Positions 10,335 to 42,476 of a DNA stretch of 49,376 nucleotides are shown here, one piece after another. The notes under the pieces were generated by a model, which was given only the letters and a program-made list of their open reading frames with translations, searched no databases and was not told the DNA's origin. How positions within the stretch are numbered: position 1 is the stretch's first letter; every line of letters begins with the position of its first letter. A program made the position numbers and the translations under genes. This stretch comes from Nitrospirota bacterium (GTDB lineage: Bacteria > Nitrospirota > Nitrospiria > Nitrospirales > Nitrospiraceae). The stretch lies in the NCBI GenBank assembly GCA_016200355.1, contig JACQEY010000099.1:1-49376 (forward strand), in the 5' to 3' direction.

Positions 10335-10461
10335 GCAGGATGCTCAAAAAGGCCGTCCAGCAAGGCCGCAGCGAGTGAAGGCCCGAGGCGTACCCTCGGG
10401 GTACGTTGAGGGGCTGAACGATGCGAGAACGACACTGGCGGGCTTTTTCAGCATCCTGCTA
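10335..10461. repeat. Family A palindromic element, copy A2
   Basis: GCAGGATGCTCAAAAAGGCCGTCCAGC at the left pairs with GGCGGGCTTTTTCAGCATCCTGC at the right, and a central GTACCCTCGGGGTAC palindrome separates them. Its right edge, read on the minus strand as TAGCAGGATGCTGAAAAAG, supplies the TAG stop codon (10459-10461) of the YceI gene. Confidence 0.88.
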
Positions 10462-11070
10462 GGGTTTAGCCTTGATACATTCTATATCGAGTCGTATCTG
10501 GACCTCGTCGCCGACGACGAGCCCGCCACTATCCAAGGTCTTGTTCCAGATCATACCGAAATCTTTGCGGTTGAACTTCCCCTCTGCGTTGAAGCCGGCC
10601 CTGGTATTGCCCCAGGGATCCTTCGTCGCCCCGTTATAATGGCCCACGAGGGTGACTTCCTTGGTCACCCCGCGTAGCGTGAAGTCTCCTACCGCCGTAA
10701 AGCCCTCTGCGGTTTTCTTATAGTTCTTCAGCTTGTAGATCATTGTCGGAAAATGTTCCACATCGAGAAAATCGGCATTCCGTATGTGGGCATCACGTTT
10801 TTCGTGATTCGTATTTACCGACACGGCCTTGATCGTGGCCTCAATGGCCGTCGCGGTACCAGCTTCGGCATCCATGTCGATAAACCCGGTATAGTCCGTG
10901 AACCGGCCCGTGGTCTTTGACACGACCATGTGCGTGACGCGAAACTCGATCGTCGAATGCTCAGGGTCCACGTTCCAACGAGCTGGTTCAGCATGAGCCA
11001 CCAGTGGGAGCCAGGCCATCACTCCGAGCAGCAAGAGCACGAACCAACCCTGCCTTCTCTTCTTCAGCAT
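10459..11070 (-). CDS. YceI-family periplasmic lipid-binding-like protein
   Basis: 203 residues. The ATG at 11070 has the ribosome binding site GGGAGGAG about 5 bases upstream and gives a signal peptide (MLKKRRQGWFVLLLLGVMAW...AHA). The mature part starts ARWNVDPEHSTIEFRVTHM and continues through the YceI lipocalin-like beta-barrel motifs (DFLDVEHFPTMIYK, GDFTLRGVTKEVTL, FGMIWNKTLDSGG). YceI proteins bind isoprenoid or other lipidic molecules in the periplasm; the ligand here is unknown. The stop codon coincides with the edge of the family A2 element. The upstream TonB-like gene lies 52 bp away in the same direction. Confidence 0.92.
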   Translation of the reverse strand: MLKKRRQGWFVLLLLGVMAWLPLVAHAEPARWNVDPEHSTIEFRVTHMVVSKTTGRFTDYTGFIDMDAEAGTATAIEATIKAVSVNTNHEKRDAHIRNADFLDVEHFPTMIYKLKNYKKTAEGFTAVGDFTLRGVTKEVTLVGHYNGATKDPWGNTRAGFNAEGKFNRKDFGMIWNKTLDSGGLVVGDEVQIRLDIECIKAKP

Positions 11071-11122
11071 GAATGACTCCTCCCGGTTAACTAATTGCGG
11101 ACGGACTAGAATGGATTGCGGT

Positions 11123-12118
11123 CTACCTCTTCGAAGGCTGGCCCGATGCATCAGGCTTGCTGGTTGACCGACTCCCGACTGACTGCACTTCGCGAGACCG
11201 CCCTCGGCTTCCGGTTCGCATCCGAACATGCACGTCCACCACACCCTCTTCCAGCTCACTGGGGAACGGCAGGAACGGTTGGGCATTGATCACCGCATAA
11301 ATTCCGGCTTCGTCGATCTCGCGGGCGCCGGAGCCTTTCTCAATCTCGATCAGCTGGGCGCGGCCGTTGGGAAACATCTTGAAACGGACCTTCACCGTTT
11401 CGCTGCTTGAGGCACGCCGGACTCCACGGATCTGTCGGGCCCAACTCCGGCTGATGAGGTGGCTCACATGTTGCCAGTAGGCCTTCCCCTCCCCTGGGGA
11501 GGCAAACGGGACGAGATCTTCTTCTGCTAAGGCGCCGGTCGAGACCGGTTCCACGGCCGGTTGTATTTCATCCAAGATGACATCCCCGCTCTGCGACTCA
11601 TCCGGACGAACGGGCGGTAACTCACTATTCTCTTTGGCCGGCTCCAACGGATCCATGGTCACATACACGATCCGACGCATGAACGGTTCGAGTGTGTCCT
11701 GGCGGGATCGAGAAAATGTCACTTGCACTCGCGCCGCTCTGTGTGGCACGGAGGTTCGACTCATGAGGATCGGTTCAAGCGTGACCGTCCCCTTTAACAC
11801 CATCGACTCTGCGTCCAGCTCAAGCGTGACTGTTTGGGCCTGAAACACAATAGACTCACAAGTCGCCACTACCGGCGTCGTGCCCGCTGTCACGCCTCCA
11901 AGAACAATCGTCAGCGTGACAGGCTTGCCGGTTTGCGGATCTCCCATCGACTCCGATTGGCTCAACTCGAACTGCGCCCACCGCTTCGTGGGGCTGGACG
12001 AGGGTGTCGTCTGTGGCGATGATGCGGAATGCGCTGGTGCGATGAGGCCGGGACAGAATAACGCCACACAACATATCCCCGCCAGCAGCACAAGATCTCG
12101 GTGGTGTAGCGTCTTCAT
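11123..12118 (-). CDS. TonB/TolA C-terminal domain secreted protein
   Basis: About 331 residues. The ATG at 12118 is preferred over 12127 because an AGG motif then lies at a usable distance. The signal peptide is MKTLHHRDLVLLAGICCVAL...AHS. The middle contains beta-rich repeats of unknown type (VTLTIVLGG, VTLELDAESMVLKGTVTLEP). Residues about 220-310 form a TonB C-terminal-like domain (ISRSWARQIRGVRR, VKVRFKMFPNGRAQLIEIEKGSG, INAQPFLPFPSEL). Unlike classical TonB it has a cleavable signal rather than a clear anchoring helix with a Pro-rich spanning region, so energy transduction is not assured. No ExbB/ExbD or receptor gene is nearby. Confidence 0.75.
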   Translation of the reverse strand: MKTLHHRDLVLLAGICCVALFCPGLIAPAHSASSPQTTPSSSPTKRWAQFELSQSESMGDPQTGKPVTLTIVLGGVTAGTTPVVATCESIVFQAQTVTLELDAESMVLKGTVTLEPILMSRTSVPHRAARVQVTFSRSRQDTLEPFMRRIVYVTMDPLEPAKENSELPPVRPDESQSGDVILDEIQPAVEPVSTGALAEEDLVPFASPGEGKAYWQHVSHLISRSWARQIRGVRRASSSETVKVRFKMFPNGRAQLIEIEKGSGAREIDEAGIYAVINAQPFLPFPSELEEGVVDVHVRMRTGSRGRSREVQSVGSRSTSKPDASGQPSKR

Positions 12119-12253
12119 CGGTCGCATCCTACCGATCTCGCAGACCCTGGCGCAACCCGTTTTTTCCTGTAGCCCTCATTATGTATGACGGTTCGTCGAG
12201 AAATCGCGAAGGCGCCAAGCGAGACGGGCGCATGGAGCTGCGAGGCGGGGCTT

Positions 12254-12317
12254 GCCACGCCTACCCTTTCCTTCGCACATCGGACGAGCGCGTTCCGATC
12301 GTGCGCGTTTCGCAAGC
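12254..12317 (-). repeat. Family B intergenic repeat, copy 2
   Basis: The reverse complement matches 132-196: CGCGCACGAT.GGAACGCGCTCGTCCGATGTGCG.AGGAAAGGG. Both copies are intergenic and about 64 bp long. Confidence 0.6.
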
Positions 12318-12485
12318 ACGGGACATCAACAGGCCGACATCTCCCTTGCTTTTCCGTGAGCAAAAGACCGGCATGGACGTCGCTCCTGTCACATTCTTCC
12401 AGTTCCTGAACCACTTACACAGATTCAATGGCATAGTATTTTTCTCTCCGGATAGGGAACTGCCGCATGAGAAGGTTCAATTCTC

Positions 12486-12513
12486 TTGACAGAGAACGCA
12501 TTTGTACTAGTCT
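12486..12513 (+). promoter_or_regulatory. Candidate sigma-70 promoter for the DUF3015 gene
   Basis: TTGACA (12486-12491, perfect -35) is followed after 16 bp by TAGTCT (12508-12513), a weak -10 with the key T, A and final T. It lies about 45 bp upstream of the DUF3015 start codon, a suitable distance. Confidence 0.45.
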
Positions 12514-12559
12514 GAGTCGTATACGGATCAATAGTTGGTTTTTCAACGAAGGAGGATTT

Positions 12560-13099
12560 ATGTTTCAACGAACAGTATTTATCCTGATCGCCTGTTCCTT
12601 ATTGGCATTGCAGGCTACCGGCGTAGGGGCGGCTGGGAACCCGGACAATGGTCCTGGATGTGGCCTGGGAAAGCTCGCCTGGATGGATTATGGGGGCCAA
12701 AAACAAATTGCGCCCCAGGTTATGATGGCAACGACGAACGGCACCTTCGGCAGCCAAACCTTCGGGATCTCCTCCGGCACGTCAGGTTGTGCCAACGACG
12801 GCATGATTATGAAGAACAAGCACATCAATATGGCGAGCCGCAGTTTTGAGAGCCTGGCAGAAGAAATGGCACAGGGGCGGGGCGAGCATCTTGCCTCCCT
12901 GGCAACGTTACTGGGAGTCCCAGAGGAAGCCCAGCCGGAATTTTTTGCACTGGTTCAAGAGAAATATACTATCTTAGTCGGATCCGACGACACGACTGCG
13001 GTGACGATGCTGCAGGCGCTTCAGTCGGCCATGGCCGAACGTCCTGCCCTGGCCAAGGTGTCCTTTGTCAACGAGGATCTGCAGAAGGCGCTTCGATAA
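12560..13099 (+). CDS. DUF3015 secreted protein, paralogue 1
   Basis: 179 residues. A GAAGGAGG ribosome binding site sits 6 bases before the ATG at 12560. The signal peptide (MFQRTVFILIACSLLALQAT...GA) is followed by the DUF3015 signature: GPGCGLGKLAWMDYG, IAPQVMMATTNGT, SSGTSGCANDG, then a C-terminal module with AQGRGEHLASLATLLGVP. Two cysteines (GPGCG and TSGCAND) are conserved in all three paralogues of this window and could form a periplasmic disulfide. The function of the family is unknown. The other copies are at 21177-21683 and 21782-22293. The gene is transcribed alone. Confidence 0.9.
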   Translation: MFQRTVFILIACSLLALQATGVGAAGNPDNGPGCGLGKLAWMDYGGQKQIAPQVMMATTNGTFGSQTFGISSGTSGCANDGMIMKNKHINMASRSFESLAEEMAQGRGEHLASLATLLGVPEEAQPEFFALVQEKYTILVGSDDTTAVTMLQALQSAMAERPALAKVSFVNEDLQKALR

Positions 13100-13320
13100 C
13101 GAAGGGAAAACAACGGGGCCCTTCTCCAATACTCATTCTTTCGTTCTCTTTGGATATTCCCGCTGGGGATTTGGCTCGTCTTCGTGGGTGAGAGTATGCA
13201 CGCATACCAATTGATCTGAGGCAGCCAGCGCAATCCCTTCGATCTTATTGAGAGAGTGGCTATCAACGATGGGCGTAGAGGCTGGGGGTTCCGAAGGGGT
13301 GCCTCCTTCGTGGGAATCCT

Positions 13321-13342
13321 CCAAGGGGGCTTGCCCCCTTGG
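13321..13342. other. Strong GC hairpin without a T-run
   Basis: CCAAGGGGGC, two loop bases, GCCCCCTTGG, extended by flanking CCT/AGG pairs. The stem is perfect over 10 bp. It lies in non-coding DNA upstream of tdh. With no T-run it is not a standard terminator. Role unknown. Confidence 0.5.
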
Positions 13343-13440
13343 GAGGAGTGGGCGAGGCAGGTTTCAGAGCCGAGCCTACGACGGAAGGGAGGCCTACGTG
13401 AAACAGTATGTTGACCGACCAAGCGGCGATCCCGCAATTG

Positions 13441-13475
13441 CAGCAGGGCCGCTCATGAATAATGTGGGCTAAGGG
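13441..13475 (+). repeat. Family C repeat fragment
   Basis: CAGCAGGGCCGCTCATGAATAATGTGGGCTAA closely matches one arm of the palindromic element at 34239-34352 (CAGCAGAAGCGCTCATGAATAATGCGGGCTAG). Only one arm is present here. It lies just before tdh. Confidence 0.6.
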
Positions 13476-13510
13476 TAGGCGGGATCGAGCCCGTAGTATA
13501 CAATGAGCCC

Positions 13511-14545
13511 ATGCGTGCGCTCGTCAAGACATCGGTACAGCCAGGGTTGACCGCCACCGACAGGCCGGATCCGAAACCGGGCTCCACCGATGCGATCGTC
13601 CGCGTCACTGCCACCTCTCTCTGCGGGACGGATGCCCATATTTACAATTGGGATCCCTGGGCGCACAGCCGCATCCACCCGCCGCGCATCATTGGCCATG
13701 AAATGTGCGGCGAGGTCGTGGAAGTCGGCTCGGATGTCACGCTCGTCAAGGTGGGCGATTACATCGCCGCCGAGTCGCACATCACATGTGGTCAATGCTT
13801 CCAATGCCGCACCGGACAAGCGCATGTGTGCAAGCATTACCGCATCCTCGGCGTCGATCGCGACGGGTCGTTTGCGGAATACGTCGCGTTGCCTGAAGCT
13901 GTGCTCTGGAAGACTTCGCCCACCCTTCCACCCGAACTCGCCTGCCTCCAAGAACCGCTCGGCAACGCCGTTGATGCCGCCTTAGTCGAAGACCTCACGG
14001 GACAGACAGTCTTGATCACCGGCTGTGGTCCGACTGGCCTGTTCGCGGCCGCCGTCGCACGAACGGCCGGCGCTGCCGTGATCATTGCCACGGATGTCAG
14101 TGCATACCGTCTGGATCTTGCCAAACAAGTCGGCGCCGATCACCTGCTCGACGCCAAGACCGAGACGGCGGACCGGATCGCTGCCGCCATTCGCGAGATC
14201 ACCGCTGGCGAAGGCGTCGACGCCTCGCTCGAAATGTCGGGGAATCCTGCGGCACTGCATCAAGCCTTCAATGCCGTAAAGAACGGCGGACGCGTGACAC
14301 TCTTCGGCATTCCGACCGGTCCGATCAATTGCGATCTCGCAAATGAAATTATCTTTAAGGGGATTCGCGTCTACGGCATTACAGGCCGCCGACTCTTCAA
14401 AACCTGGTACCGCTTAACCGGTCTCTTCCAGGCCGGACTCAATATCAAGCCGGTGATCACCCATACATTTCCCATGAAAGACTTCGCCCAGGGATTCGAG
14501 TTGATCAATTCAGGCCAATGCGGGAAGGTAGTCTTGATTCCGTAA
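13511..14545 (+). CDS. tdh: L-threonine 3-dehydrogenase
   Basis: 344 residues, the usual Tdh length. It is a medium-chain zinc dehydrogenase with the catalytic site SLCGTDAHIYNWDPW, diagnostic of threonine dehydrogenases, then GHEMCGEVVEVG. The structural-zinc cysteines are in CGQCFQCRTGQAHVC. The NAD-binding motif is GCGPTGLFAAAVA. It oxidises threonine to 2-amino-3-ketobutyrate, which the next gene's product cleaves. The gene starts at the ATG at 13511. It is separated from kbl by an 84-bp gap filled with a TGAGTGCTGAG-type inverted repeat, and the two are likely co-transcribed. Confidence 0.94.
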   Translation: MRALVKTSVQPGLTATDRPDPKPGSTDAIVRVTATSLCGTDAHIYNWDPWAHSRIHPPRIIGHEMCGEVVEVGSDVTLVKVGDYIAAESHITCGQCFQCRTGQAHVCKHYRILGVDRDGSFAEYVALPEAVLWKTSPTLPPELACLQEPLGNAVDAALVEDLTGQTVLITGCGPTGLFAAAVARTAGAAVIIATDVSAYRLDLAKQVGADHLLDAKTETADRIAAAIREITAGEGVDASLEMSGNPAALHQAFNAVKNGGRVTLFGIPTGPINCDLANEIIFKGIRVYGITGRRLFKTWYRLTGLFQAGLNIKPVITHTFPMKDFAQGFELINSGQCGKVVLIP

Positions 14546-14549
14546 CCAT

Positions 14550-14622
14550 AGTGCTGAGAGATGAGTGCTGAGAACCGAGCCCGCTGATCACCCAAGTCTC
14601 AGCACTCAGCACTCGGTCCTAA
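14550..14622. repeat. Inverted repeat of the word AGTGCTGAG in the tdh-kbl gap
   Basis: TAGTGCTGAGAGATGAGTGCTGAGAAC pairs with GTCTCAGCACTCAGCACTCGG across a short spacer. It fills the intercistronic gap. The kbl start codon follows about 10 bases after it with no Shine-Dalgarno sequence. Related copies lie at 39709-39798 and 43142-43170. Confidence 0.7.
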
Positions 14623-14629
14623 TAGTCCC

Positions 14630-15820
14630 ATGGCCTACGACTCATTCAAAAAAACTGTTTCTGAGCGGCTCGCTGAAATCCGCGCGGCAGGCCTCTACAA
14701 ATCTGAGCGGCAGATTCTCGGTCCGCAGGGAGCCGAGATTCGCGTGGCGCAGGGTGAAGTCCTCAATCTCTGCGCCAACAACTATCTGGGGCTCGCCAAC
14801 CACCCTGACATCAGACAAGCCGCAATCGCCGGACTGCAAGAACATGGCTACGGCATGGCCTCAGTCCGGTTCATCTGCGGCACGCAGGATCTCCACATAC
14901 AACTTGAACAAGCAATCAGCGCCTTCCTGGGCACCGAGGACACGATCCTCTATAGTTCCTGCTTCGACGCCAACGGCGGACTCTTTGAGGTGCTCCTCGG
15001 CGAGCAAGACGTCGTCATCAGCGACGCCTTAAACCATGCCAGCCTGATCGACGGCATCCGGCTCTGCAAGGCCACCAGGCTCCGCTACGCGCACTCCGAT
15101 ATGGAAGACCTGGAAGCCAAGCTGCGCGACGCGACATCCTATCGCCTGCGCCTGATCGCGACGGACGGAGTCTTCTCCATGGACGGCGATCTCGCGAAAC
15201 TCGATCGGATCGTTGAGCTGGCGGAGAGATATGATGCCGCGGTGATCGTGGACGACAGTCACGCGACCGGCGTGCTCGGGCGCAACGGGCGCGGCACGCC
15301 GGACCATTTCGGCGTCGCCGACCGAATCGAGATCGTCACCAGCACGCTGGGCAAGACCTTGGGCGGCGCGACGGGCGGGTTTACGTCCGGACGAAGGGAG
15401 ATCGTCGAGCTGTTGCGGCAGCGGTCGCGGCCCTATTTGTTTTCAAATTCACTGCCCCCGGTCATCGCCGCAGCGGCTCGGCGAGCCGTGGTCCTCGTGG
15501 CCCAAGGCGACCAATTACGGGCCAGGCTACGCGAGAACGCGACGTTCTTCCGCGCGCAACTCACTGCCCTCGGATTCCGGCTCGTTCCCGGCGAGCATCC
15601 CATTATCCCGATCATGTTGGGTGACGCCTCACTCGCCACCAGGATGGCAGAGCGGCTTCTGGAGGAAGGGATCTATGTCGTGGGGTTCAGTTACCCGGTT
15701 GTGCCGGAAGGCCAGGCGCGAATTCGCGTCCAGATGTCGGCAGCCCACACCCGCGAACAGCTTGAGCGAGCCAGCGCCGCCTTTGCCACAGTCGGCCGGG
15801 AACTGGGCGTCATCCGATAA
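14630..15820 (+). CDS. kbl: Glycine C-acetyltransferase (2-amino-3-ketobutyrate CoA ligase)
   Basis: 396 residues, the family length. An alpha-oxoamine synthase of PLP fold type I, with [12 protein letters not shown] near residue 50, [17 protein letters not shown], the cofactor-binding [10 protein letters not shown], and the Schiff-base lysine in [13 protein letters not shown]. With CoA it cleaves 2-amino-3-ketobutyrate to glycine and acetyl-CoA. Adjacency to tdh separates it from the otherwise similar BioF and HemA/SPT relatives. The ATG at 14630 is set by alignment to the family N-terminus; no Shine-Dalgarno sequence is visible, and an inverted repeat lies immediately upstream. Confidence 0.94.
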
Positions 15821-15825
15821 AAACG

Positions 15826-15929
15826 TTTATTTGGTCTGTCTGGTCTATTTGGTTTATCTGGTTTTTCTGGTTTTTCCCGTTTACAACCAAACAAACCAGA
15901 CCAACCAGATGAACAAAACAAACCGGGCT
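15826..15929. repeat. Family D long inverted repeat (GGTTTGTCTGG words), copy D1
   Basis: TTTATTTGGTCTGTCTGGTCTATTTGGTTTATCTGG is followed by a complementary arm of CCAAACAAACCAGACCAACCAGATGAACAAAACAAACC. It sits between the convergent stops of kbl and mlaA and begins 5 bp after the kbl stop. The predicted hairpin is long and could terminate or protect both transcripts. Copies D2 (17079-17160) and D3 (47818-47908) use the same words. Confidence 0.75.
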
Positions 15930-15932
15930 TCG

Positions 15933-16808: not shown

Positions 16809-17036
16809 CACCCCGGCCTCCTTAACAACCCACAGGTTCATGAAAACGTCTACTTCACACCGGCAAGTCGCTCCTCTGAGCAGGCTCTCGGAGCCAGCCG
16901 ACGCGCACTGTACCAAATGCCGAGGCAATCTCCAACCACTTCTTATGAAATTTTTCCGTGAGCGCGACTTGTCTGCCCTAATCTCGGTCTGTCGGCCCAC
17001 TTCCTCAAGTCTTACCTATCTCAGTCGAGTACGGAC

Positions 17037-17189
17037 TAGCAGGCTGCTCAAAATGGCCGTCCAGCAAAAGAAAACCGTTATTTGGTTTATTTGGTTTGTC
17101 TCGTTTGTTTGGTTAAACAAAACCAACGAGATGAACAAAACAAACCAGATGAACCAGACAGGCTGGCGGACTTTTTCAGCAGCCTACTA
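17037..17189. repeat. Composite repeat: family A element (A3) with a family D hairpin in its centre (D2)
   Basis: The outer parts are the two halves of a family A element (GCAGGCTGCTCAAAATGGCCGTCCAGC and GGCTGGCGGACTTTTTCAGCAGCCTACTA). The usual A centre is replaced at about 17079-17160 by a family D hairpin (TTATTTGGTTTATTTGGTTTG..., with AAACAAAACCAACGAG...CAGATGAACCAG). On the minus strand the right edge reads TAGTAGGCTGCTGAAAAAG, and its first TAG (17187-17189) is the stop codon of the alpha/beta hydrolase. The rest of the 378-bp gap 16809-17186 holds no gene. Confidence 0.85.
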
Positions 17190-17948
17190 AGATCGGATGG
17201 CGGTTTGAACAAACTCTACCCATCGTCGGAAATAGGCCGCGCCCCCGATTTGGTAGGTGTTATTGTGGTCGGCGCCTTCAATGACATAGAAGGATTTGGG
17301 AGGCTTGGCCGCCTCGAAGACCTGCCGGCCCAATTCGAGAGGGATAATGTCGTCTTTGTCGCCGTGAATGATCAACTTCGGGAGCGAGAGCTGCGGAAGG
17401 CGATCGATCAATGCGAAATCTGCCCCGAGCAGCCAATGGACCGGCAATCCTCCGTAATGAAACTTGGCCACCGCGCCGATCGACGGAAACGACGATTCGA
17501 GAATCAGCCCCACAGCAAGCTTCTGCGCGGCAACTTCTCCGGCAACCGCCGCGCCAAGCGAGCGTCCGAATAGAACGATGCGCTCAGGACGGATCATTCT
17601 GGTTCGCGTTAGATAATCGTGCGCCCCCAACGCATCCTGATAGAGCCCCTCCTCCGACGGCCGCCCCTGGCTCCGACCATAGCCGCGATAATCGAACAGA
17701 AACACCGACAGTCCGATGCGGTACAGTTCACGCAGATTCTCCAGCCGGTTGATAATGTTCCCGGCGTTGCCGTGGCACCAGAGTATGACCGGACGATCTG
17801 CCTGCGCCTCAACATACCAACCGAACAACCGCGCCCCATCAGCAGCCTGAAACCACACCTCTTCCAGCGGCAAGCCACTGAGCCGAGCCCAGTCCCGATC
17901 TTGCCAAGGCTCGGGATGATAGACAAAGAATTGGTCGAGGATGCCCAT
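17187..17948 (-). CDS. Alpha/beta hydrolase (ABHD13/Bem46-like)
   Basis: 253 residues. The fold shows the oxyanion region WCHGNAGNIINR, the DYRGYGRSQG motif, the nucleophile elbow GRSLGAA (Ser), the acid in HGDKDDIIP and the catalytic His in GADHNNTY. This arrangement is that of the ABHD13/Bem46 group of serine hydrolases. The substrate is unknown. The N-terminus (MGILDQFFVYHPEPW) has no signal peptide. It lies 26 bp downstream of the outer-membrane barrel gene in the same direction and is probably co-transcribed. The stop codon is the outer TAG of the A3 element. Confidence 0.88.
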   Translation of the reverse strand: MGILDQFFVYHPEPWQDRDWARLSGLPLEEVWFQAADGARLFGWYVEAQADRPVILWCHGNAGNIINRLENLRELYRIGLSVFLFDYRGYGRSQGRPSEEGLYQDALGAHDYLTRTRMIRPERIVLFGRSLGAAVAGEVAAQKLAVGLILESSFPSIGAVAKFHYGGLPVHWLLGADFALIDRLPQLSLPKLIIHGDKDDIIPLELGRQVFEAAKPPKSFYVIEGADHNNTYQIGGAAYFRRWVEFVQTAIRS

Positions 17949-17974
17949 CGTGCCTTACTTTGGAGAACGACGAC

Positions 17975-18625: not shown

Positions 18626-18665
18626 CTCGAGCCTACCCTACGCGCATTGGTCAGCAGCGCCGACC

Positions 18666-18704: not shown

Positions 18705-18727
18705 CTTCGATTGCGAACGTTCGAGAA

Positions 18728-33964: not shown

Positions 33965-34561
33965 GCTACAACCTTAGCAGATCATCGAAAGATGCGAAGT
34001 AGCTTCCCTGGCCACCTTGCACCAGTTTTCGCTTCCGTTCAGTTTCCCACGATCTTGCGGGGAGGCAAACTGGACCGAGATATGCAATCCTAGTGCCATT
34101 ATGGTCTTTACAGTGAATATGGATGTCTTTGATTATTTAAGGTGTTAGGGGTGACTTCTTCTTTCTTTTCCTCGATCCTTTTCAAAAATGAACAAGCTCG
34201 TCAAGAATCACCGTCGAGAGAGCCTTCTCTCGGAGCGGCTAGCCCGCATTATTCATTCAGACCGGAAGTCTTCGCCACTTGCCTCTGGCCCCATGCCTCT
34301 CGCCCAAACATCGGCGATTGCAGCAGAAGCGCTCATGAATAATGCGGGCTAGATAGGATTTCGAGCAAACCAAGCGGCAAGTCCGACCGTCTAATCGAGA
34401 AAATCTGATGCTACTCGACAATTGCCGTAGCAACTCTCATGCATCAAACACGCTGGTTGGTTGTGCCAATGACGAGCCTTATGGTACCGTTCTTTGTTCC
34501 ACGTTCTCATTTTCATGATCGAGCTGGTCCGGGGGATGACCAGTCTTTCCACATACATCGT
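33965..34561. other. Divergent gene-free region holding a family C palindrome
   Basis: The nearly 600-bp gap lies between the divergent giant-TPR and secretin genes. The palindromic element at 34239-34352 is its only recognisable content. I did not identify promoters with confidence. Confidence 0.5.
34239..34352. repeat. Family C palindromic element with perfect 18-bp ends
   Basis: CTAGCCCGCATTATTCAT (34239-34256) and ATGAATAATGCGGGCTAG (34335-34352) are exact reverse complements. The 114-bp unit has the look of a small miniature inverted-repeat element. One arm recurs at 13441-13475, and an internal segment with a degenerate arm recurs at 36568-36638. Confidence 0.85.
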
Positions 34562-36163
34562 ATGGGAATAATGGATTTTTTTTCTTTCGGACAATTGAGC
34601 TGGATCAGACAGGCCGCTCTCGTCTGTCTACTGGCAGTGCTGAGTGGATTTCTGCTTCCTATTACCCTACGGGCTGAATCCGGAGGAAACGCCGCCGGAC
34701 GCGTCTCCCTCGACTTCAACGATGTCGAACTCTCTGTTTTTGTTCGATTCATCAGCGAGTTAACCGGCAAGAACTTTGTCTTGGACGATGTCGTCAAGAA
34801 GGCCGGAGGAAAAATCAGTGTGTACTCTCCTACCAAGGTCACGCACGCCCAAGCGTATAGCATGTTCGTGGCAGCGCTCGAAGTCAGTCATCTGGCTGTC
34901 GTCACGAAAGGGAATGTCCATCAAATCGTGGCGATGGGGGAGCTTCCTCCGGAACGAGGGGCTTTCGTCTACAAACTCAAACACGCCAATGCGACCGATC
35001 TTGCGGCCATCCTAACCAACCTCGTCGCCCGATCTCAGACCGTGGCACAGACGGCGCCTGGCACACGACCACTATTTAGGCCCTTGAGTGAATTCGAAGC
35101 CCCCGTCCAAGTCTTTGCGGACAAGGCTACAAATTCGATCATCATCAGTTCGACAAAAAGCGCCTACACCAGGTTGCAGTCCGTCATTCGAGATTTGGAT
35201 ACACGTCGGAATCAGGTCTTTGTCGAAGCCGTCATCTTGGAGGTGGAGGTTGATCGGCTCAGACAGATCGGGAGCGACCCTATTCAGGTAATAGGTGCGG
35301 GCAAGAATGGTCAACTGCAAGGAATCGCTGGACTCAATGTCGCACCAGAAAACTTGGCAACCATCGCGCAGTCCATTATTGGGGGCACTGCAACTGGAGG
35401 AGCGGTGTCGGCCCTCAACACGATCAACGTCCGCGCATTCTTACAACTGCTGCTGAGCCTTACGGACACGAATGTCCTGTCGACCCCCCAAGTGCTCGCC
35501 GCAGATAACCAAAAGGCCAAGATCGTCGTGGGTGAAAATCGTCCCTTCCCCACAGGTCAGGCCCAGGGAATCACGGGAGGAACCCTTGTCACGATCGAGC
35601 GAAAAGATGTCGGCGTCACACTGGAATTCACTCCACAGGTTCTGGAGAACGACTTGATCCGATTAGAAATCAAGCAGGAGATTACCGCCATAGCGGAGGC
35701 TGTGGCGCAAACGATCGGGAGCGGGACGGCCAGCATCCCGGTTGGACCCACCACGACCAAACGGTCGATGGAGACAACCGCCATCGCGAAAGATCAACAG
35801 ACCATCGTCGTCGGCGGGCTCGTGCGGGATAACATCACCATCAACGAGCGAAAAGTTCCGCTCTTGGGCGATATCCCGTTCTTGGGATGGCTGTTCAAAT
35901 TCCAAAGCCGACAGATCGTGAAACTCAACCTGCTCGTATTCCTGACTCCAACCCTCGTCAGGGATGAGGCAGACATGGTGGAGTTGAAAGCCCGCAAATC
36001 AGCGGAATTGGGGACACTGCAGCGCGAAACTCGGATTGAGGAACCCACAAGGCTCAAGCAAGAAGTCTTAGAAAAACTCGACCGCCAGGATGGAACTCCT
36101 CGCACCCTTCCGAATACCGTGGATCCATCCGCTCCGCTCCAGCCACCAGTGCAACCTGAGTAA
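34562..36163 (+). CDS. Secretin of the GspD/PilQ type
   Basis: About 533 residues from the ATG at 34562, preferred over 34439 because the hydrophobic export segment (IRQAALVCLLAVLSGFLLPI) then lies near the N-terminus. Residues about 40-230 hold N-domains (VSLDFNDVELSVFVRFISE, RGAFVYKLKHANATDLAAIL, NSIIISSTKSAYTRLQSVI). The C-terminal part is the secretin channel: LSLTDTNVLSTPQVLAADN, VPLLGDIPFLGWLFK and LNLLVFLTPTLVRD. Secretins form outer-membrane rings for type II secretion, type IV pili or phage extrusion. No other secretion gene is adjacent, so the system cannot be assigned. It is divergent from the giant TPR protein. Confidence 0.9.
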   Translation: MGIMDFFSFGQLSWIRQAALVCLLAVLSGFLLPITLRAESGGNAAGRVSLDFNDVELSVFVRFISELTGKNFVLDDVVKKAGGKISVYSPTKVTHAQAYSMFVAALEVSHLAVVTKGNVHQIVAMGELPPERGAFVYKLKHANATDLAAILTNLVARSQTVAQTAPGTRPLFRPLSEFEAPVQVFADKATNSIIISSTKSAYTRLQSVIRDLDTRRNQVFVEAVILEVEVDRLRQIGSDPIQVIGAGKNGQLQGIAGLNVAPENLATIAQSIIGGTATGGAVSALNTINVRAFLQLLLSLTDTNVLSTPQVLAADNQKAKIVVGENRPFPTGQAQGITGGTLVTIERKDVGVTLEFTPQVLENDLIRLEIKQEITAIAEAVAQTIGSGTASIPVGPTTTKRSMETTAIAKDQQTIVVGGLVRDNITINERKVPLLGDIPFLGWLFKFQSRQIVKLNLLVFLTPTLVRDEADMVELKARKSAELGTLQRETRIEEPTRLKQEVLEKLDRQDGTPRTLPNTVDPSAPLQPPVQPE

Positions 36164-36197
36164 TCTCTGCTCATGAGCATCGGCAATCGCTGCATTA

Positions 36198-36454
36198 GCA
36201 GGATGCTGGAAAAGTCGCCTTTCTCACCCTCCCAACCCTGGCACGCCGAGACGCGCCTATTCCCATGCATCGTTCTCACTTCGCTCAGAATCTCAACGTA
36301 TGGGGGCGAGCCTCTCGGATATCGGAATCACTGGGGGGGATTTTCCGTTCGCCAAGATCAATTCAAAGGGCGAACGGCACACACGAAGTGCGGTACGTAC
36401 CTCCCGCCTCTTTGCTCGCTGCGGCCTTGCTGGACGGAATTTTGAGCATCCTAC
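36198..36454. repeat. Family A palindromic element, copy A4 (expanded centre)
   Basis: It begins GCAGGATGCTGGAAAAGTCG and ends CGGCCTTGCTGGACGGAATTTTGAGCATCCTA. The ends match the other A copies, but the interior is about 130 bp longer, including GCGAGCCTCTCGG and CGTACCTCCC. It lies 34 bp after the secretin stop codon. Confidence 0.75.
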
Positions 36455-36567
36455 GTGATGTTCTCCTGTTGTCCCAGACGTGCGGGCCATTGAGTTTCCA
36501 CCGTGCCACAATAGTTTTTCCGCAAACTCCTAGTGGCATGAGAGAAGACATTCTTTCCAGTCACCCT

Positions 36568-36638: not shown

Positions 36639-36702
36639 GCGTGAACCACCTGAAGTCAACGAATCAACCGAATACCTGTAAAGTTTGGTTGGCCAGAGGG
36701 TA

Positions 36703-36780: not shown

Positions 36781-36806
36781 ATCCCAAGGATGCGCGGAGA
36801 GCGGGG

Positions 36807-36836
36807 ATCTTAACAAAGTGAAGAATGCTGCCGCAA
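36807..36836 (-). promoter_or_regulatory. Candidate promoter for tRNA-His
   Basis: On the minus strand, TTGCGG (36831-36836) and TAAGAT (36807-36812) are separated by 18 bp, with the tRNA 5' end 27 bp downstream. The -10 matches at 4 of 6 positions and the -35 at 3. Weak but well placed. Confidence 0.35.
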
Positions 36837-36844
36837 CCGATGGA

Positions 36845-36935
36845 GTAGCCATTGGCCATGGGTCATTCGTCAATGGAGGAGAATAGCCTCTTCAAGTGTT
36901 AGCGATCGACTGTTGACCATTGACGGCTGACTCTC
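36845..36935. repeat. Inverted repeat of CAATGG/CCATTG words after pyrF
   Basis: CCATTGGCCATGGGTCATTCGTCAATGG and GTTGACCATTGACGGCTGACTC form a short word-based inverted repeat between the pyrF stop and the tRNA-His promoter. It uses the same kind of word as 27566-27669. Confidence 0.5.
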
Positions 36936-36936
36936 T

Positions 36937-37650
36937 TCAGCCCCTGGCATCAAAGGCCGCCTGCATTTCCGTAAGAATTGTGGCGGCGGCGGCGGCGGGA
37001 TCTGAAGCATCTCTGATGGGTCTGCCGACCACCAAATAATCGGCCCCCGCCGAAATCGCCTGGGTCGGCGTGGTCGCCCTGGCGTGATCATCGACGCCTT
37101 TGCCCGCAGGCCGTACGCCTGGTGTAACGATCAGAAATCGCGGACCGACCTTAGGGCGGAGGATGGCCGGCTCTTCGCCCGAGGCTACCACCCCATCACA
37201 GCCTACCTCGGACGCCAACAAGGCGCGAGCCGTGACCAAGTCCTGGACGCTCCGCTGAATCCCCATATCGCGGAGATCCTGGCTATCGAAGTTGGTCAGC
37301 ACCGTCACCGCCAACAGTTTCAGAGTAGACTTTCCACGGCCTTGGACGGCTGCGGCCAGCGCTTTCCGATTTGCATGGACCGTTAAGAACTCTACGCCCA
37401 TTGCCGCAACCCGCGCAGTGGCCCGACGAACGGTCTCTTCGATATCGAGAAACTTGAGATCCAGAAACACCCGCTTGCCTCGCGTGATCAGACGTTGGAC
37501 CATCTCAGGTCCAGCGGCGGTGTACAATTCGAGTCCAACCTTCACAAATACGATCTGATCCTGTACGCGATCGAGAAGCCGGTCGGCTTCATCGCGAGAG
37601 GGCACATCGAGGGCCAAGATTAAGCGGTCACGAGCACTGATGGTTGACAC
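36937..37650 (-). CDS. pyrF: Orotidine-5'-phosphate decarboxylase
   Basis: 237 residues. A TIM-barrel OMP decarboxylase with LILALDVPSRDEAD at the start, VKVGLELYTAAGPE, and the catalytic FLDLKFLDIEETV (D-x-K-x-x-D, here Asp, Lys, Asp). Most homologues have His at the Leu position (DLKFHDI). The C-terminal motifs are IVTPGVRP and the phosphate-binding ADYLVVGRPI. It makes UMP, the last step of pyrimidine synthesis. The gene is divergent from rpsT. The codon after the alanine-rich AAAAAT segment lies in a long GCC/GCG-rich run. Confidence 0.95.
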   Translation of the reverse strand: MSTISARDRLILALDVPSRDEADRLLDRVQDQIVFVKVGLELYTAAGPEMVQRLITRGKRVFLDLKFLDIEETVRRATARVAAMGVEFLTVHANRKALAAAVQGRGKSTLKLLAVTVLTNFDSQDLRDMGIQRSVQDLVTARALLASEVGCDGVVASGEEPAILRPKVGPRFLIVTPGVRPAGKGVDDHARATTPTQAISAGADYLVVGRPIRDASDPAAAAATILTEMQAAFDARG

Positions 37651-37679
37651 AGGCTTGTCCTTTTGAAAAATGGCTTGCC

Positions 37680-37709
37680 TTGACGCCTCAGAGAACCGTG
37701 TGGTACAAG
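37680..37709 (+). promoter_or_regulatory. Candidate promoter for rpsT
   Basis: TTGACG (37680-37685, 5/6) and TACAAG (37704-37709, 4/6) with an 18-bp spacer lie 28 bp upstream of the S20 start codon. Plausible but not strong. Confidence 0.4.
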
Positions 37710-37736
37710 TGCACTCTTTTTTTAGAGGAGTCTACT

Positions 37737-38015
37737 ATGCCGGTTGTACATAAATCCACGATTCGCCGAGCCCGCCAAGCCGTCAAGCGCCACGACCGTA
37801 ACCGTGCGACGCTGGGTGCCCTCAAGAGCCTGGTCAAGAAAGTCCAAGCGGCCGTGGCCGAGAAGAAGGCTGAGGATGCGAAGGTATCCCTGCGCCAAGC
37901 TACATCGGCCCTCGGCAAGGCTGTGACGAAGGGTGTGATGAAACCGAACACGGCCTCGCGCCGAATTGCTCGCCTCACGCTCCACGTCAACTCCTTATCT
38001 GCTTCCCGCGCGTAA
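37737..38015 (+). CDS. rpsT: 30S ribosomal protein S20
   Basis: 92 residues, Lys/Arg/Ala-rich helical protein. TAGAGGAG precedes the ATG at 37737. The N-terminus (MPVVHKSTIRRARQAVKRHDRNRA) and the C-terminal GVMKPNTASRRIARLTLHVN are typical of S20, which binds 16S rRNA in the 30S subunit. A longer in-frame start at 37644 would add unrelated residues. Its 3' end overlaps the 3' end of holA on the other strand by 29 bp. Confidence 0.95.
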   Translation: MPVVHKSTIRRARQAVKRHDRNRATLGALKSLVKKVQAAVAEKKAEDAKVSLRQATSALGKAVTKGVMKPNTASRRIARLTLHVNSLSASRA

Positions 38016-39105
38016 TCGTTCGCACGTTCGAGATGGTTCTCGCTCTAACCGGTTGCGGCAGCTCGGTGCCACGACCCGGTGACGAGGAGGGACGTACGTT
38101 GACCTGTGCACGGGCACATAACCGCAACAACACGTCTTCAAGAATTCGGGCAGGACGTCCGCCGCTTCCACCCTTCAGCTTGGCATCGGCATCTAAAAAT
38201 AACCGAAGCGCCTCATGCAAGTGGACGTCGGGAAACTGATCGAGAAACGCCCGCACCTTGTAGGGATCCATGCGCAAAATCCGAGCGGCCTCCCCCTCAC
38301 GGCCCCCTTGCCGGGCGATTTCCTTAACCTTCCACAGTCTCCGATATTGCCAGGCCAGTGAGCCGAGAATTCTCAGTGGAGCCTCGCCCGCTTCCAGGTT
38401 CCTGGCCAAGATCGCCAACACCCGCCCGTGGTCTTTGCCGCCGATCGCCACCGTCAAATCAAACACCGACGCGCCAGGTTCCGTTCCGCGCAACGTCGAC
38501 ACATCGTCGGCGGTGACAACCTGACCCGGCGAGACATACGCAGCCAGCTTTTCCAGTTCACGCCGAACTGAGTAGAGCGAGCCACCGCAGGCCTCTTTGA
38601 GTAAATCAATCGCTTCGTCGTTGAGCCGAACCCCGACCCGTTCAGCATCCTGTCTGAGCCAAGGAAGCCACTGCGCCTCTCGGAGAGGAGAACAATCGAC
38701 CGTCACCGAGACCTTTGCCAGAGCCTGGGTGAACTTGAGTCGTCCGTCAAGCTTCGGTGCGACGAAGATCACAGACGTGGAGTCATTCGGCTCCTTCAAA
38801 TAGGGAAGAATCGCGTCGCACTCCCGGGCTGGAAGTTTATCGGCCGCTTTCACCACCACCACTCGTCGAGCTGCAAATACGGCTACTTCCGAAGCACAGG
38901 TGACAATCTCTCTCCCACTCACATCATCTCCATAGAACAGATCACAATTGAAGTCGCTCGCACCTTCTCCCAATAACGCGGATTTCAGCGCACCCAGAGC
39001 CATATCGCGCAGCAAATCTTCCTCGCCGACCACCGCATACAGCGGCGTGACCGTTCCTTGCGCAAGCTGCGCATTGAGCTGGGCATGAGAAATGGCTGAG
39101 GCCAT
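37987..39105 (-). CDS. holA: DNA polymerase III delta subunit
   Basis: 372 residues. The delta fold is recognisable: PLYAVVGEEDLLRDMALGAL at the N-terminus, ARRVVVVKAADKL, ADDVSTLRGTEPGASVFDLTVAIGG in the middle and the helical collar LAWQYRRLWKVKEIARQGG at about residue 255. The subunit opens the beta sliding clamp in the clamp-loader complex. The C-terminal 30 residues (NVRPSSSPGRGTELPQ...) are basic, Ser/Pro-rich and probably disordered. It follows leuS and lptE in the same direction, the usual order, and overlaps rpsT convergently. Confidence 0.94.
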   Translation of the reverse strand: MASAISHAQLNAQLAQGTVTPLYAVVGEEDLLRDMALGALKSALLGEGASDFNCDLFYGDDVSGREIVTCASEVAVFAARRVVVVKAADKLPARECDAILPYLKEPNDSTSVIFVAPKLDGRLKFTQALAKVSVTVDCSPLREAQWLPWLRQDAERVGVRLNDEAIDLLKEACGGSLYSVRRELEKLAAYVSPGQVVTADDVSTLRGTEPGASVFDLTVAIGGKDHGRVLAILARNLEAGEAPLRILGSLAWQYRRLWKVKEIARQGGREGEAARILRMDPYKVRAFLDQFPDVHLHEALRLFLDADAKLKGGSGGRPARILEDVLLRLCARAQVNVRPSSSPGRGTELPQPVRARTISNVRTITRGKQIRS

Positions 39106-39118
39106 AGTGAATATCTGC

Positions 39119-39790
39119 CTATTTGATGGTGCTGTCCGCGTTGTCCGATACTGGATGAGCGGAGGGATTTGCCAACTGTCCTGATTCCAACTGAAGCAGA
39201 AAGCGGGAAGCCAAATCCTCGGCGATGAAACGGCCGGCTTGTTCTAAGGCCCGGTTCTGCAGGACACGGTTAAATTGCAGATCGGGCGTCACGTAGAACT
39301 CCGAAATGCCTTTCGCTGTTTGTGCCCACACGAGACGTTGCGTCCTGGCCTCCTGCACCTTGATAATCACCATAACCTCTGCACGGCTTTCGACCGTGAT
39401 GGTCTGGCTGAAACTGAGCGTGGGAAGCGTCACTGAGAGGATTTGCCCCGACAGCACAAGATCGGCTGCCTCAGACTCTGAAACGACCTGAGCCCCGCTG
39501 CCGGATGAAAATTCATGGCGCAGATAGTTGGTGTAGCGGGTTTCCAAGTTCGGCTCAAAGCTTTTGTTTTCCAACGTCTGGACAATCAACCGCGGTGGCG
39601 GCGACGTCGGAGAAGAAGTCACTGCCGGCCCCCCGATCGTAGGCCCAGCTCCCTCCACACGAAATTGATAACCACAGCCGCCCGGTAGGGCTAAGAACAG
39701 ACACAGTGCTGAGACCTGCGTGCTGAGAATGAAAAGGTGGTACACCCTTTCGTTCCGAATCGCACCATTCCTGGTCTCAGGTCTCAGCAC
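39119..39790 (-). CDS. lptE: LPS-assembly lipoprotein LptE
   Basis: Up to 223 residues. The lipobox is LALPGGC, then the LptE fold: LIVQTLENKSFEPNLETRYTNYLRHEF, ADLVLSGQILSVTLPTLSFS, VMVIIKVQEARTQRLVW, EQAGRFIAEDLASRFLLQL. LptE plugs LptD at the outer membrane in LPS transport. The start could be the ATG at 39790 or, more conventionally for a lipoprotein signal, the GTG at 39745 (VYHLFILSTQVSALCLFLALPGGC). Neither has a good ribosome binding site. Parts of the signal region (LSTQVSAL) are encoded by an arm of the AGTGCTGAG inverted repeat. It lies between leuS and holA. Confidence 0.9.
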   Translation of the reverse strand: MLRPETRNGAIRNERVYHLFILSTQVSALCLFLALPGGCGYQFRVEGAGPTIGGPAVTSSPTSPPPRLIVQTLENKSFEPNLETRYTNYLRHEFSSGSGAQVVSESEAADLVLSGQILSVTLPTLSFSQTITVESRAEVMVIIKVQEARTQRLVWAQTAKGISEFYVTPDLQFNRVLQNRALEQAGRFIAEDLASRFLLQLESGQLANPSAHPVSDNADSTIK

Positions 39791-39798
39791 TCAGCACT
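39709..39798. repeat. Inverted repeat of AGTGCTGAG words overlapping the lptE start
   Basis: AGTGCTGAGACCTGCGTGCTGAGA at about 39710-39732 pairs with GGTCTCAGGTCTCAGCACTCAGCACTT at about 39773-39798. It spans the leuS-lptE junction. The outer arm covers the candidate ATG of lptE, and the inner arm encodes part of its signal peptide. Confidence 0.75.
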
Positions 39799-39801
39799 TC
39801 C

Positions 39802-42237
39802 TTAGACGACAAAATTTATTAGCTTTTTCTCCACATAGATCACTTTTTTTGGCTCTTTGCCCTGCAACCACTCCGTGATCTGCGTACGAGCCAGCACTTC
39901 GACCTGCGTGCGAGTGGCATCGGCTCCCATGTCGAGTTTGGCCCGCAACCTTCCATTCACTTGGATCGGGATGGTCAATCGATCGCTGACTGTCAACACA
40001 GGATCAAAGATCGGCCAAGGATGCTGAGAGATGCTCGGCTGGTGACCCAGCACCTCCCACAATTCTTCCGCCAGATGGGGCGCGAAGGGCGCCAGAAGAA
40101 GAATAAATGGCTCAAGCAAGGCCCGGGAACGCTGCTCGGCCTTCGTCATCTCGTTCGTAAAGACCATCATCTGGGAGATTGCGGTATTGAACCGCAATCC
40201 TTCGATATCCTCGGTCACCTTCTTGATCGTCTGGTGGAGCAACCGCTGATGTTCGAGAGTAGGAACCGTCTCTACCACGGCACTCGCGAGTCGGCCCTCT
40301 TCATTCACCATGAGCCGCCAGACCCGTTCGAGAAACCGCGTGACCCCTTCCACGCCCCTCGTACTCCAGGGCTTCACAGCCTCCAGCGGACCCATGAACA
40401 TTTCATAGAGCCGGACCGCATCGGCCCCGAACTGGTCCATCATCTCGTCGGGATTCACGACGTTTCCACGGGATTTCGACATCTTCTGGTTGTCTTCACC
40501 CAGCACAATCCCCTGATGCACCAGTTTCTTGAACGGCTCCGGTGTACTGACTATTCCAATGTCGTATAGAACTTTGTGCCAAAACCGCGCATAGAGCAAA
40601 TGCAGCACGGCATGTTCGCTGCCGCCGATATAGAGATCCACCGGCATCCAATAGCGCTCCTGTTCCGGATCGACGAGCTGGCCCTGATTCTTCGGATCAA
40701 TAAATCGCAGATAATACCAGCAGGAGCCGGCCCACTGAGGCATCGTGTTGGTTTCACGACGAGCCGGCACGCCACTGATCGGGTCGGTGATCGTCAGCCA
40801 GTCGGTTAAATTCGCGAGTGGGCTTTCGCCGTTCCCGGACGGTTTGAAGTTGTTGGTCTCCGGCAACAATATCGGTAGTTGCTCTTCTGGAAGCGGAAGG
40901 GCATGGCCATCAACCCACACAATCGGAAAGGGTTCGCCCCAATACCGCTGACGAGCAAACAGCCAGTCCCGCAACTTGTAGTTCACTGCCTTGCGGCCCT
41001 TGCCCTGCGATTCTAACCAAGCCGTGATTTTCGGAATCGCGTCACCCGGTGTCAGCCCATCGATGGTAAAGCTTCTGTCCGGCGTCGTGGAATTGACGAC
41101 GGTCCCCTTGTCGGTCGTAATGAACGCCTCCTGTTCAACCTGCCCACCCGCGATTACTTCGCGGATCGGCAAGGCATAGGTCTTCGCAAAGGCCCAGTCC
41201 CGCTCATCGTGCGCAGGCACAGCCATAATGGCCCCAGTCCCGTAACCCATCAACACATAATCGGCAATCCAAATAGGCAGCGGTTCCTTGTTCACCGGAT
41301 TCACCGCATAGCCGCCGGTGAAGACTCCGGTCTTTTCCTTTTCGAGTTCCTGCCGTTGGAGATCGCTTTTTCTTGCCGCCGCCTCGCGATAGGCGGTGAC
41401 CTCGATGCGACGGTCGGCAGTCGTGACAACCGCCACTAACGGATGCTCCGGCGCCAGCACCATATAGGTCGCACCGAACAAGGTATCGGGCCTCGTCGTA
41501 AAGATCCGAACCATGCCGGAGGCGGCGGCCAGATCGAACTCGACTTCCGCGCCGATCGATCGGCCGATCCAATTCTTCTGCATCTCCAACGTGCTGGCCG
41601 GCCATTCGACCAGCTTCAAGTCTTCGAGTAGCCGATCGGCATAAGCCGTGATCTTCAACACCCATTGGCGCATCGGCTTGCGCACCACATCGAACCCGCC
41701 GACCTCGCTCTTCCCATCGATAATTTCTTCATTGGCGAGCACCGTCCCCAGAGCAGGGCACCAGTTCACCGGTACTTCCGCCACGTAGGCCAGTCCTCGC
41801 TCGAACAGTTTCAAGAAGATCCACTGCGTCCAGCGATAATAATCGGGGTCAATCGTGCTGATCTCACGTTCCCAGTCGTAGGACAGACCGACACGTTTCA
41901 TCTGGCGCTTGAAGGTCGCGATGTTCTGGGCTGTCGTGATGGCAGGATGGACTCCCGTCTTCATGGCGTATTGCTCAGCGGGCAGCCCGAACGCGTCCCA
42001 CCCCATTGGATGCAGCACATTGAAGCCCCTCATACGTTTGTAGCGGGACACGATGTCGGTGGCGGTGTATCCCTCAAGATGGCCGACGTGGAGGCCTGAG
42101 CCTGATGGATAGGGGAACATGTCGAGGCAGTAGAACTTCGGCTTGCTCTGGTCGTCAGCGACGCGGAAGGTCCGGTGCTGCTCCCAATAGGCCTGCCACT
42201 TCACTTCGAGGGCGTGATGATCGTAGGTCTTGCTCAT
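39802..42237 (-). CDS. leuS: Leucyl-tRNA synthetase
   Basis: 811 residues, the family length. Class I signatures: HVGH in [19 protein letters not shown] near residue 50, and KMSKS in [16 protein letters not shown] near 580. The editing (CP1) domain is present with [20 protein letters not shown] and [21 protein letters not shown]. The C-terminal anticodon-binding and Leu-specific domains follow. It charges tRNA-Leu. It opens the leuS-lptE-holA operon. The ATG at 42237 starts [19 protein letters not shown], as usual. Confidence 0.97.
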
Positions 42238-42347
42238 ACTGGCACTGAGTCTCTCTCGTCTCGAAAAAGTCGATGGACTCTAACATAGACCAGTGGGAGC
42301 AACAAGAATCGACGAAGGAGGGGTTCATATGAGACAGGAGCACATCA

Positions 42348-42476
42348 CGTAGGATGCTCAAAATGGCCGTCCAGCAAGGCCGCAGCGAGCGAAGACCGGA
42401 AGCGTACCCTCTGGGGTACGTTGAGGATCTGAGCGAAGCGAGAACGCCGCTGGCGGACGTTTTCAGCATCCTGCTA
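42348..42476. repeat. Family A palindromic element, copy A5
   Basis: It begins TAGGATGCTCAAAATGGCCGTCCAGC, ends CGCTGGCGGACGTTTTCAGCATCCTGCTA and contains the central GTACCCTCTGGGGTAC palindrome. On the minus strand its right edge TAGCAGGATGCTGAAAAC supplies the stop codon of the HAD phosphatase gene (42474-42476). Confidence 0.88.

Follow-up and report, generated by a model that had tools for sequence, protein, structure and literature searches.

Background

IS5-family insertion sequences (ISs) and several groups of short palindromic repeats are the described systems closest to the elements analyzed here. IS5 from E. coli duplicates the tetranucleotide Py-T-A-Pu (YTAR), mostly CTAG, with ISfinder counts (n = 24) of 15 for CTAG, 3 each for CTAA and TTAG, and 1 each for three others; ctgg, too, is named in a legend of that source (PMC5493358). 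RUP (IS630-Spn1), Correia/NEMIS and MITEAba12 are short, multi-copy, non-coding and mostly intergenic bacterial elements derived from ISs, with terminal repeats matching those of an IS, for which the available text of the sources reports no pattern of docking at stop codons (PMC2229807, PMC6382973). GTAG-tagged repetitive extragenic palindromic sequences (REPs) of 20–40 bp, often linked to a Y1 transposase, lie near gene 3' ends, and the TAG at one of their ends is often the stop of the flanking open reading frame (ORF) (PMC3733652). For E. coli REPs whose hairpin lies up to 15 nt from a stop codon a regulatory effect has been reported (PMC12306157); in the available text of that source Nitrospira appears once, in a table row for N. 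moscoviensis.

Here we analyze family A, a group of palindromic elements found in a 49,376-nt stretch of DNA from a Nitrospirota bacterium (contig JACQEY010000099.1 of assembly GCA_016200355.1; the whole stretch is referred to as the window), where three of them begin directly at the TAG stop codons of unrelated genes. The genome from which the window comes, hereafter the own genome, belongs to a relative of Nitrospira and is 92.6% complete. Family A resembles the IS5-family ISs in its terminal repeats and in the YTAR spectrum of its flanks, CTGG included, and IS copies with YTAG flanks, one of them located exactly at a stop, occur in the genus; unlike these ISs, it encodes no transposase and is built around a long palindrome. 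It shares the general features of RUP, Correia/NEMIS and MITEAba12, with the difference that 32–42% of its A-ends (defined below) abut stop codons, depending on the data set. Like the GTAG-tagged REPs it is palindromic and located near gene 3' ends, and the overlap with TAG stops as such is already published for those REPs (PMC3733652), but its units are longer (~125–200 bp), YTAG-flanked and IS5-like, and it lacks the REP features that were tested, i.e. the GTAG tag on a 20–40 bp hairpin and an associated Y1 transposase gene. Like the E. coli REPs close to stops, it places a hairpin up to 15 nt from a stop codon; the regulatory effect is one reported for those REPs. No title naming it was found in the open-licence PMC literature on Nitrospira repeats or on target sites of ISs and miniature inverted-repeat transposable elements (MITEs). 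We conclude that family A is very probably a MITE family of IS5-type transposons with a YTAR target, for which stop codons are safe landing sites. This kind of phenomenon is ordinary, the present case of it unusually clear.

Results and Discussion

Terminal repeats and target spectrum

The A-end is the arm that adjoins the stop codon in the window cases (CAGGATGCTGAAAAAGTCCGCCAGC), the B-end is the opposite arm (CAGGATGCTCAAAAAGGCCGTCCAGC, read inward), and the C-end is the inward-facing terminus that closes a tail outside the B-end, with CTAGCAGGCTGCGGAAAAAC as its best form (found in the exact version e.g. in the L021 copy). The C-end CTAGCAGGCTGCGGAAAAAC is identical, with the CTAG target included, to the ends of IS copies of ~1.32 kb from the same genus, namely to both ends of L169 and to the left end of L166, the right end of L166 being off by one flank base. 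These copies were found through loci of PF05598 (DUF772) transposases in the genus, and the transposases of L166 and L169 match transpos_IS5_4 (NCBIfam NF033581) with E-values of 1.4e-83 and 1.4e-79, above the cut-off. A third IS (L186) has A-like ends and a transposase matching transpos_IS5_4 with an E-value of 3.8e-70; an ORF of 371 aa has its TAG stop precisely where one of these ends starts, and the opposite end is at the edge of the contig. Wherever the outer ends of the ISs are readable, CTAG or TTAG adjoins them on the plus strand (L166, L168, L169, L171, L173, L180, L181, L185 and L186); the one other pair of ends, L357, looks spurious. Pairing of ends over 600–4000 bp in the first 162 sequences, the ORFs of which are unannotated, revealed no obvious autonomous copy.

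The flanks of 81 A-ends from the own genome read CTAG in 23 cases, TTAG in 19, CTGG in 8 and CTAA in 5, the others being scattered. The bases preceding the A-end are T (88%), A (77%) and G (78%), with a complete TAG in 46 of 81 copies; only 4 of 65 B-ends are preceded by TAG. This putative target spectrum, like the terminal repeat match a direct observation, matches the one published for IS5. Among 124 units with both ends recognised, 27 exhibit CTAG on both sides; where the flanks are non-palindromic, 11 units have the combination expected from a 4-bp duplication (CTAA/TTAG 7, TTAG/CTAA 4) and 2 have the same flank twice (CTAA/CTAA 1, TTAG/TTAG 1; Fisher p = 0.03).

Stop codons at loci with and without the element

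Gene calls were made with home-made scripts (dynamic programming on codon scores), and the called coding fraction of 0.76–0.78 is probably low. The own loci comprise the window and the first 100 listed of 265 half-site places; loci of named genomes were fetched by the exact 25-nt A-arm, and as some of their copies may be orthologous to one another, they do not count as independent; loci of G157, a second, near-complete genome, were fetched by the exact 15-nt A-end. The 186 paired elements (63 own and 123 named) exclude those without a B-end at 90–340 nt. The earlier note on this DNA had proposed counting coincidences with annotated stops genome-wide, and the count is well beyond chance expectation: for genes that face the A-end, offset 0 from the stop accounts for 24 of 63 own and 39 of 123 named elements and every other listed offset for 1–3, and in G157 the corresponding number is 33 of 79, again with 1–3 at other offsets. 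The stop at offset 0 is TAG or TAA in all 63 own and named cases (TGA in none), and TGA in 1 of 33 in G157.

Orthologs reveal what these stops are like where the element is absent. At the locus of the HAD hydrolase, 15 orthologs (own included) have the same C-terminus, with a family A-like end after TAG in 7, in some of them degenerate, and none in 8; the stop of these 8 is at the corresponding codon, 7 times as TAG and once as TAA (rows L204–L213, with another C-terminus, L214–L215, incomplete, and L216, the second of two G136 fragments, which bears a family A-like end, were dropped). At the locus of the alpha/beta hydrolase (L270–L271, which are cut, were dropped), the 23 loci without family A end with TAG (17), TAA (4) or TGA (2). 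Since the element-free orthologs stop at the same codon, the stop is older than the element at these loci, a native stop observed directly.

The hydrolase TAG has been a site of insertion more than once. The A-end adjoins it in the own genome and in G153, a family A element lies at the same TAG in the opposite orientation in G152, and in G145 and G149 a different MITE family is found at this stop. Comparison of L249, CAATC-CTAG-CCCGCGCTC, with L273, CAATC-CTAG-[element]-CTAG-CCCGCGCTC, reveals a clean 4-bp duplication, which belongs to the other MITE family and not to family A. Both the insertion in opposite orientation and those of another family at one TAG are direct observations, and so is the IS located at a stop (L186).

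Repeats other than family A were noticed at these stops. Ends GARCCTGTCYGACATTG characterise a third MITE-like family, present at the hydrolase TAG in two genomes (L253, L273), and a similar end follows TTAG in the window near position 48010 (48008–48030). In G158, G159 and G160 the hydrolase stop has YTAG and CTAG separated by a 7-nt piece; the pieces in L255, L261 and L274 are CCGCCTG, CAGGCTG and CAGCCTG, and the one in L261 is the expected remnant of a palindrome deletion between terminal CTGCT direct repeats. In G143 (L195) an end resembling the CCCGCATGATTCATGAACA MITE-like family follows the HAD TAG stop.

Proposed mechanism

We propose that the non-coding elements of family A, with their terminal inverted repeats of the IS5 (transpos_IS5_4) type, would have been moved in the past in trans by an IS5-family transposase, which would open a YTAR tetranucleotide, best CTAG, and duplicate it. 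Where genomes are coding-dense, selection would remove insertions that hit genes. A YTAR in which a TAG or TAA stop follows the third base of the last sense codon could take up an insertion without damage to the gene, since the duplicated target would retain a 5' copy that still serves as the stop. TAG and TAA stops would then constitute lasting, neutral landing sites, open to repeated use and to elements of several families, and the leftover excess at stops could mean either that a 3' hairpin is kept for its usefulness or that there is a site preference. The earlier note had listed targeting of stop codons among its explanations, which proves right in effect, as the targeted YTAR/CTAG contains TAG.

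Several observations weigh against this interpretation. Among the 124 units, 16 have mixed flank pairs (TTAG/CTAG 6, CTAG/TTAG 5, CTAA/CTAG 4, CTAG/CTAA 1) and many other pairs are degenerate, therefore the length of the duplication is only bracketed at 2–4 bp. No clean empty/filled pair of family A with both duplications was found at the loci compared, TA is missing from the right edge of the element at the HAD locus, and at one of the YceI loci described below (L234) the A-end follows TGA. The own genome exhibits no match to NF033581, PF05598 or PF01797 (IS5_4, DUF772 and Y1, respectively), nor does G157, and both hold many copies of the A-arm; mobility therefore looks historical, and the own-genome copies resemble an old population that has been orphaned. 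For an old MITE, a cognate transposase in the same genome is not a strict requirement. In the genus, matches to IS5_4 are present in 15 of 32 genomes, in 5 of them over the cut-off. The choice of target predicts 10% (own) and 16% (G157) of elements at stops, the observed values being 38% and 42%; neither this excess nor the long persistence at YceI is fully explained by the insertion mechanism.

Excess at stops and persistence at the YceI locus

The target-matched null was obtained from YTAR sites in the loci (stops plus intergenic sites), of which 53 of 520 in the own genome and 76 of 467 in G157 are stops. Stop positions exceed this null 2.6- to 3.7-fold, and exceed nearby sites less. Compared with YTAR sites up to 100 nt downstream of genes, the own elements number 24 at stops vs 12, with 53 vs 106 sites available (p = 3e-4), and own and G157 together 57 vs 27, with 129 vs 175 sites (p = 4e-5); for G157 alone p is 0.06. 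A part of the excess is expected, since no decay is possible where the flank is itself a stop codon, and the excess over the target-matched null means that there is a contribution from selection or from site preference. An apparently strong bias of stops towards the A-end, seen in the own genome as 24 A-ends vs 5 stops on the C side (offsets 75–77), was considered and withdrawn, since it arose largely because an intact A-end was required and an intact tail was not. With both ends required, A-end and C-side stops number 8 vs 5 in the own genome (p = 0.58), 13 vs 4 in G157 (p = 0.049) and 18 vs 7 in the named set; the orientation bias is largely an ascertainment effect.

The A-end lies directly after the YceI stop, in the same orientation, in 21 of 25 orthologous loci (L241, which has no anchor, was dropped; L222, cut 55 nt after the anchor start, was counted as a carrier). 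The preceding stop is TAG in 18, TAA in 2 and TGA in 1. Among 18 loci with both arms, 10 elements have the usual core length of ~125 nt and 8 are longer (153–328 nt). In the longer elements (L217–L242 set) the interior mostly differs from the usual core and the arms and flanks are kept; L235 and L236 have arms and flanks in common and not the interior, and arms of different subfamilies are seen in L225, L230 and L242. The exchange of interiors may be due to gene conversion, repeated insertion or palindrome slippage. In L226 (G148) another MITE-like family, TTAG-CCCGCATGATTCATGAACA...TGTCATGAATCATGAGGG-CTAG, lies between the YceI TAG stop and a family A element.

These data suit an alternative that has the transposon origin in common with our interpretation and attributes the enrichment to selection: hairpins on the stop side would be kept as a domesticated 3'-end module, acting as a bidirectional terminator, a block to 3' exonucleases or a modulator of translation. 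The over-use of stops relative to nearby YTAR sites argues for it, as do the persistence of the YceI A-end despite a different interior in 8 of 18 loci, the predicted stability of the five window hairpins (-54 to -99 kcal/mol for RNA folds of the cores over both strands, calculated without a shuffle control), the effect of E. coli REPs close to stops on translation (PMC12306157), and the distribution of the copies, which are sparsest in divergent intergenic regions (18 of the 158 for which both neighbours are called). Against it stand the weak local signal in G157 alone, the protection of stop flanks from decay, which inflates survival, the shrinking of the orientation bias once both ends are required, and a simple terminator scan, with a loop limit of 8 nt, which lists none of the family A hairpins. 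We regard this alternative as possible but doubtful. Rfam was also searched for an RNA identity of the elements and at gathering scores the window yields only a tRNA. The earlier note had suggested a role as terminator or RNA-stability signal, which is plausible: it would be compatible with the long hairpins and with the YceI A-end in 21 of 25 loci. An A-tract and a T-tract are present at the hairpin base on both strands (AAAAAG..CTTTTT), and the inner stem is far longer than in usual intrinsic terminators. A combined scenario, in which amber and ochre stops would be renewable docking sites for YTAR-targeting elements whose hairpin is then domesticated as the gene 3' end, is suggested because the stop-side arm persists at YceI across the genus and the interior is replaced in many species; we put it forward tentatively and consider it rather unlikely.

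Less probable explanations

Could family A be a REP-type repeat moved by a REP-associated tyrosine (Y1) transposase, its tetranucleotide tag providing the TAG? The tetranucleotide on one side before the hairpin and the presence of Y1 genes in 117 of 172 Nitrospiraceae genomes would agree with it, but the tag is YTAG rather than GTAG (2 of 81 A-ends), neither the own genome nor G157 has a Y1 match, a family A end occurs in 0 of 11 Y1-gene stretches from the genus, and the ends match a DDE IS instead, which makes this origin very unlikely. Even less credible is the suggestion that the element supplies the stop, by inserting inside or beyond genes and ending the reading frame. It accounts for the TAG at the element edge, but the HAD and hydrolase loci, on which its rejection rests, speak against it: orthologs free of the element stop at the codon in question, and TAG is present in 7 of 8 such HAD and 17 of 23 such hydrolase loci. 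The earlier note had named this outcome as refuting; it removes the proposal, made in that note, that stops are provided by the element, and leaves the overlap itself standing. Chance or an artefact of gene calling, conceivable with a home-made caller and a low coding fraction, has practically no probability in view of the single-offset spike in three data sets (24, 39 and 33 vs 1–3) and the Pfam matches of the three window genes.

Elements of the window

All five elements described in the earlier note exist, at or a few bases off the positions where it had placed them, and the pattern TAGCAGGATGCTGAAAA has 9 matches in the window (up to 3 mismatches, both arm kinds) vs 0.09 expected. The features are collected in Table 1. 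The three minus-strand TAG stops are confirmed, each with the conserved end directly next to it and no linker, and so is the unrelatedness of the genes, which match different Pfam families. The central GTACCC/GGGTAC palindrome, said to be common to the elements, is found in three of the five (at 7938, 10336 and 42350) and is missing from the copies at 17040, which starts with TAGTAGG, and 36196.

Table 1. Family A elements, stop codons and adjoining genes in the window
Feature	Coordinates	Strand	Remarks
Element 1	7938..8063	+	CTAG flank, away from any called gene stop
Element 2, short tail	10317..10335	.	outer CTAGCAG at its end; read from sequence
Element 2, hairpin core	10336..10458	-	A-end CAGGATGCTGAAAAAG directly after YceI stop, B-end at 10336
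TAG stop of YceI gene	10459..10461	-	last three bases of CTAG target
YceI-family gene	10459..11286	-	PF04264, E 3.3e-45
Element 3, tail-less	17040..17186	-	TTTGGTT-type repeats inside
TAG stop of alpha/beta hydrolase gene	17187..17189	-
Alpha/beta hydrolase gene	17187..17948	-	PF12146, PF00561
Element 4, full unit	36195..36533	+	TTAG at left; core 36199-36453
Element 5, hairpin core	42350..42473	-	predicted fold and sequence
TAG stop of HAD gene	42474..42476	-
HAD hydrolase gene	42474..43172	-	PF00702
Truncated copy, A-end only	46306..46366	-	CTGG flank
Degenerate copy	47800..47946 (left limit approximate)	-	TCG-flanked A-end, B-end indistinct

The unit is often longer than the earlier note had it: a tail with a C-end is recognised in 124 of 259 elements and is 75–78 nt long in 104 of these 124, the core measuring 122–126 nt in 120 of 186. 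Element 2, taken as RNA on the minus strand, has a predicted fold of -61 kcal/mol (without a shuffle control). Element 3 is flanked by CTAG (17036–17039) on one side and CTAA (17187–17190) on the other. Element 4, with a tail of 76 nt, a C-end and CTAG at 36530–36533, is located ~31 nt downstream of a secretin gene (34439–36163).

Two classes of interior were noticed. Palindromic repeats of the TTTGGTTTGTCTCGTT type occupy 17050–17170 in the window and occur also in the HAD orthologs L191, L196, L197 and L201–L203, so that this class is common to unrelated loci. The class starting with TTCTCACCCGCCCAACCC, seen in 36199–36453 of the window and in L004, L005, L008, L015 and L043, comprises longer elements, and in some copies adjoins both arms.

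Copy number and spread

The own genome contains 265 half-sites CAGGATGCTSAAAA (up to 1 mismatch; 0 for the reversed-pattern control), and the A-arm pattern has 92 matches there and 98 in G157. A 25-nt A-arm (up to 2 mismatches) is found in 162 of 175 genomes of Nitrospiraceae, an exact scan of the named genomes gave at least 109 stretches, and the 80 titles among the matches listed are all of Nitrospira, Nitrospiraceae, Nitrospirae or Nitrospirota. By its own half-sites and its family-wide matches, family A is non-coding, dispersed and multi-copy. In 184 of 259 elements both arms have the same outer 9-mer (shuffled mean 145, maximum 155), a result that fits structural selection and equally the existence of subfamilies whose ends match; the G/G mismatch at arm position 10 is uninformative, as G at this position was demanded by the search itself.

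Conclusions

A target that contains TAG can make the stop codon a harmless landing site that outlasts the insertion, which explains the abrupt 3' boundary common to unrelated genes, and the same logic should apply to any element that targets CTAG/YTAR. If the tentative scenario of docking followed by domestication is true, stop-adjacent MITEs would be a genus-wide, exchangeable 3'-end module. As a repeat family present across the Nitrospiraceae, in 162 of 175 genomes, family A is relevant to the annotation of nitrifiers and to studies of their gene 3' ends.

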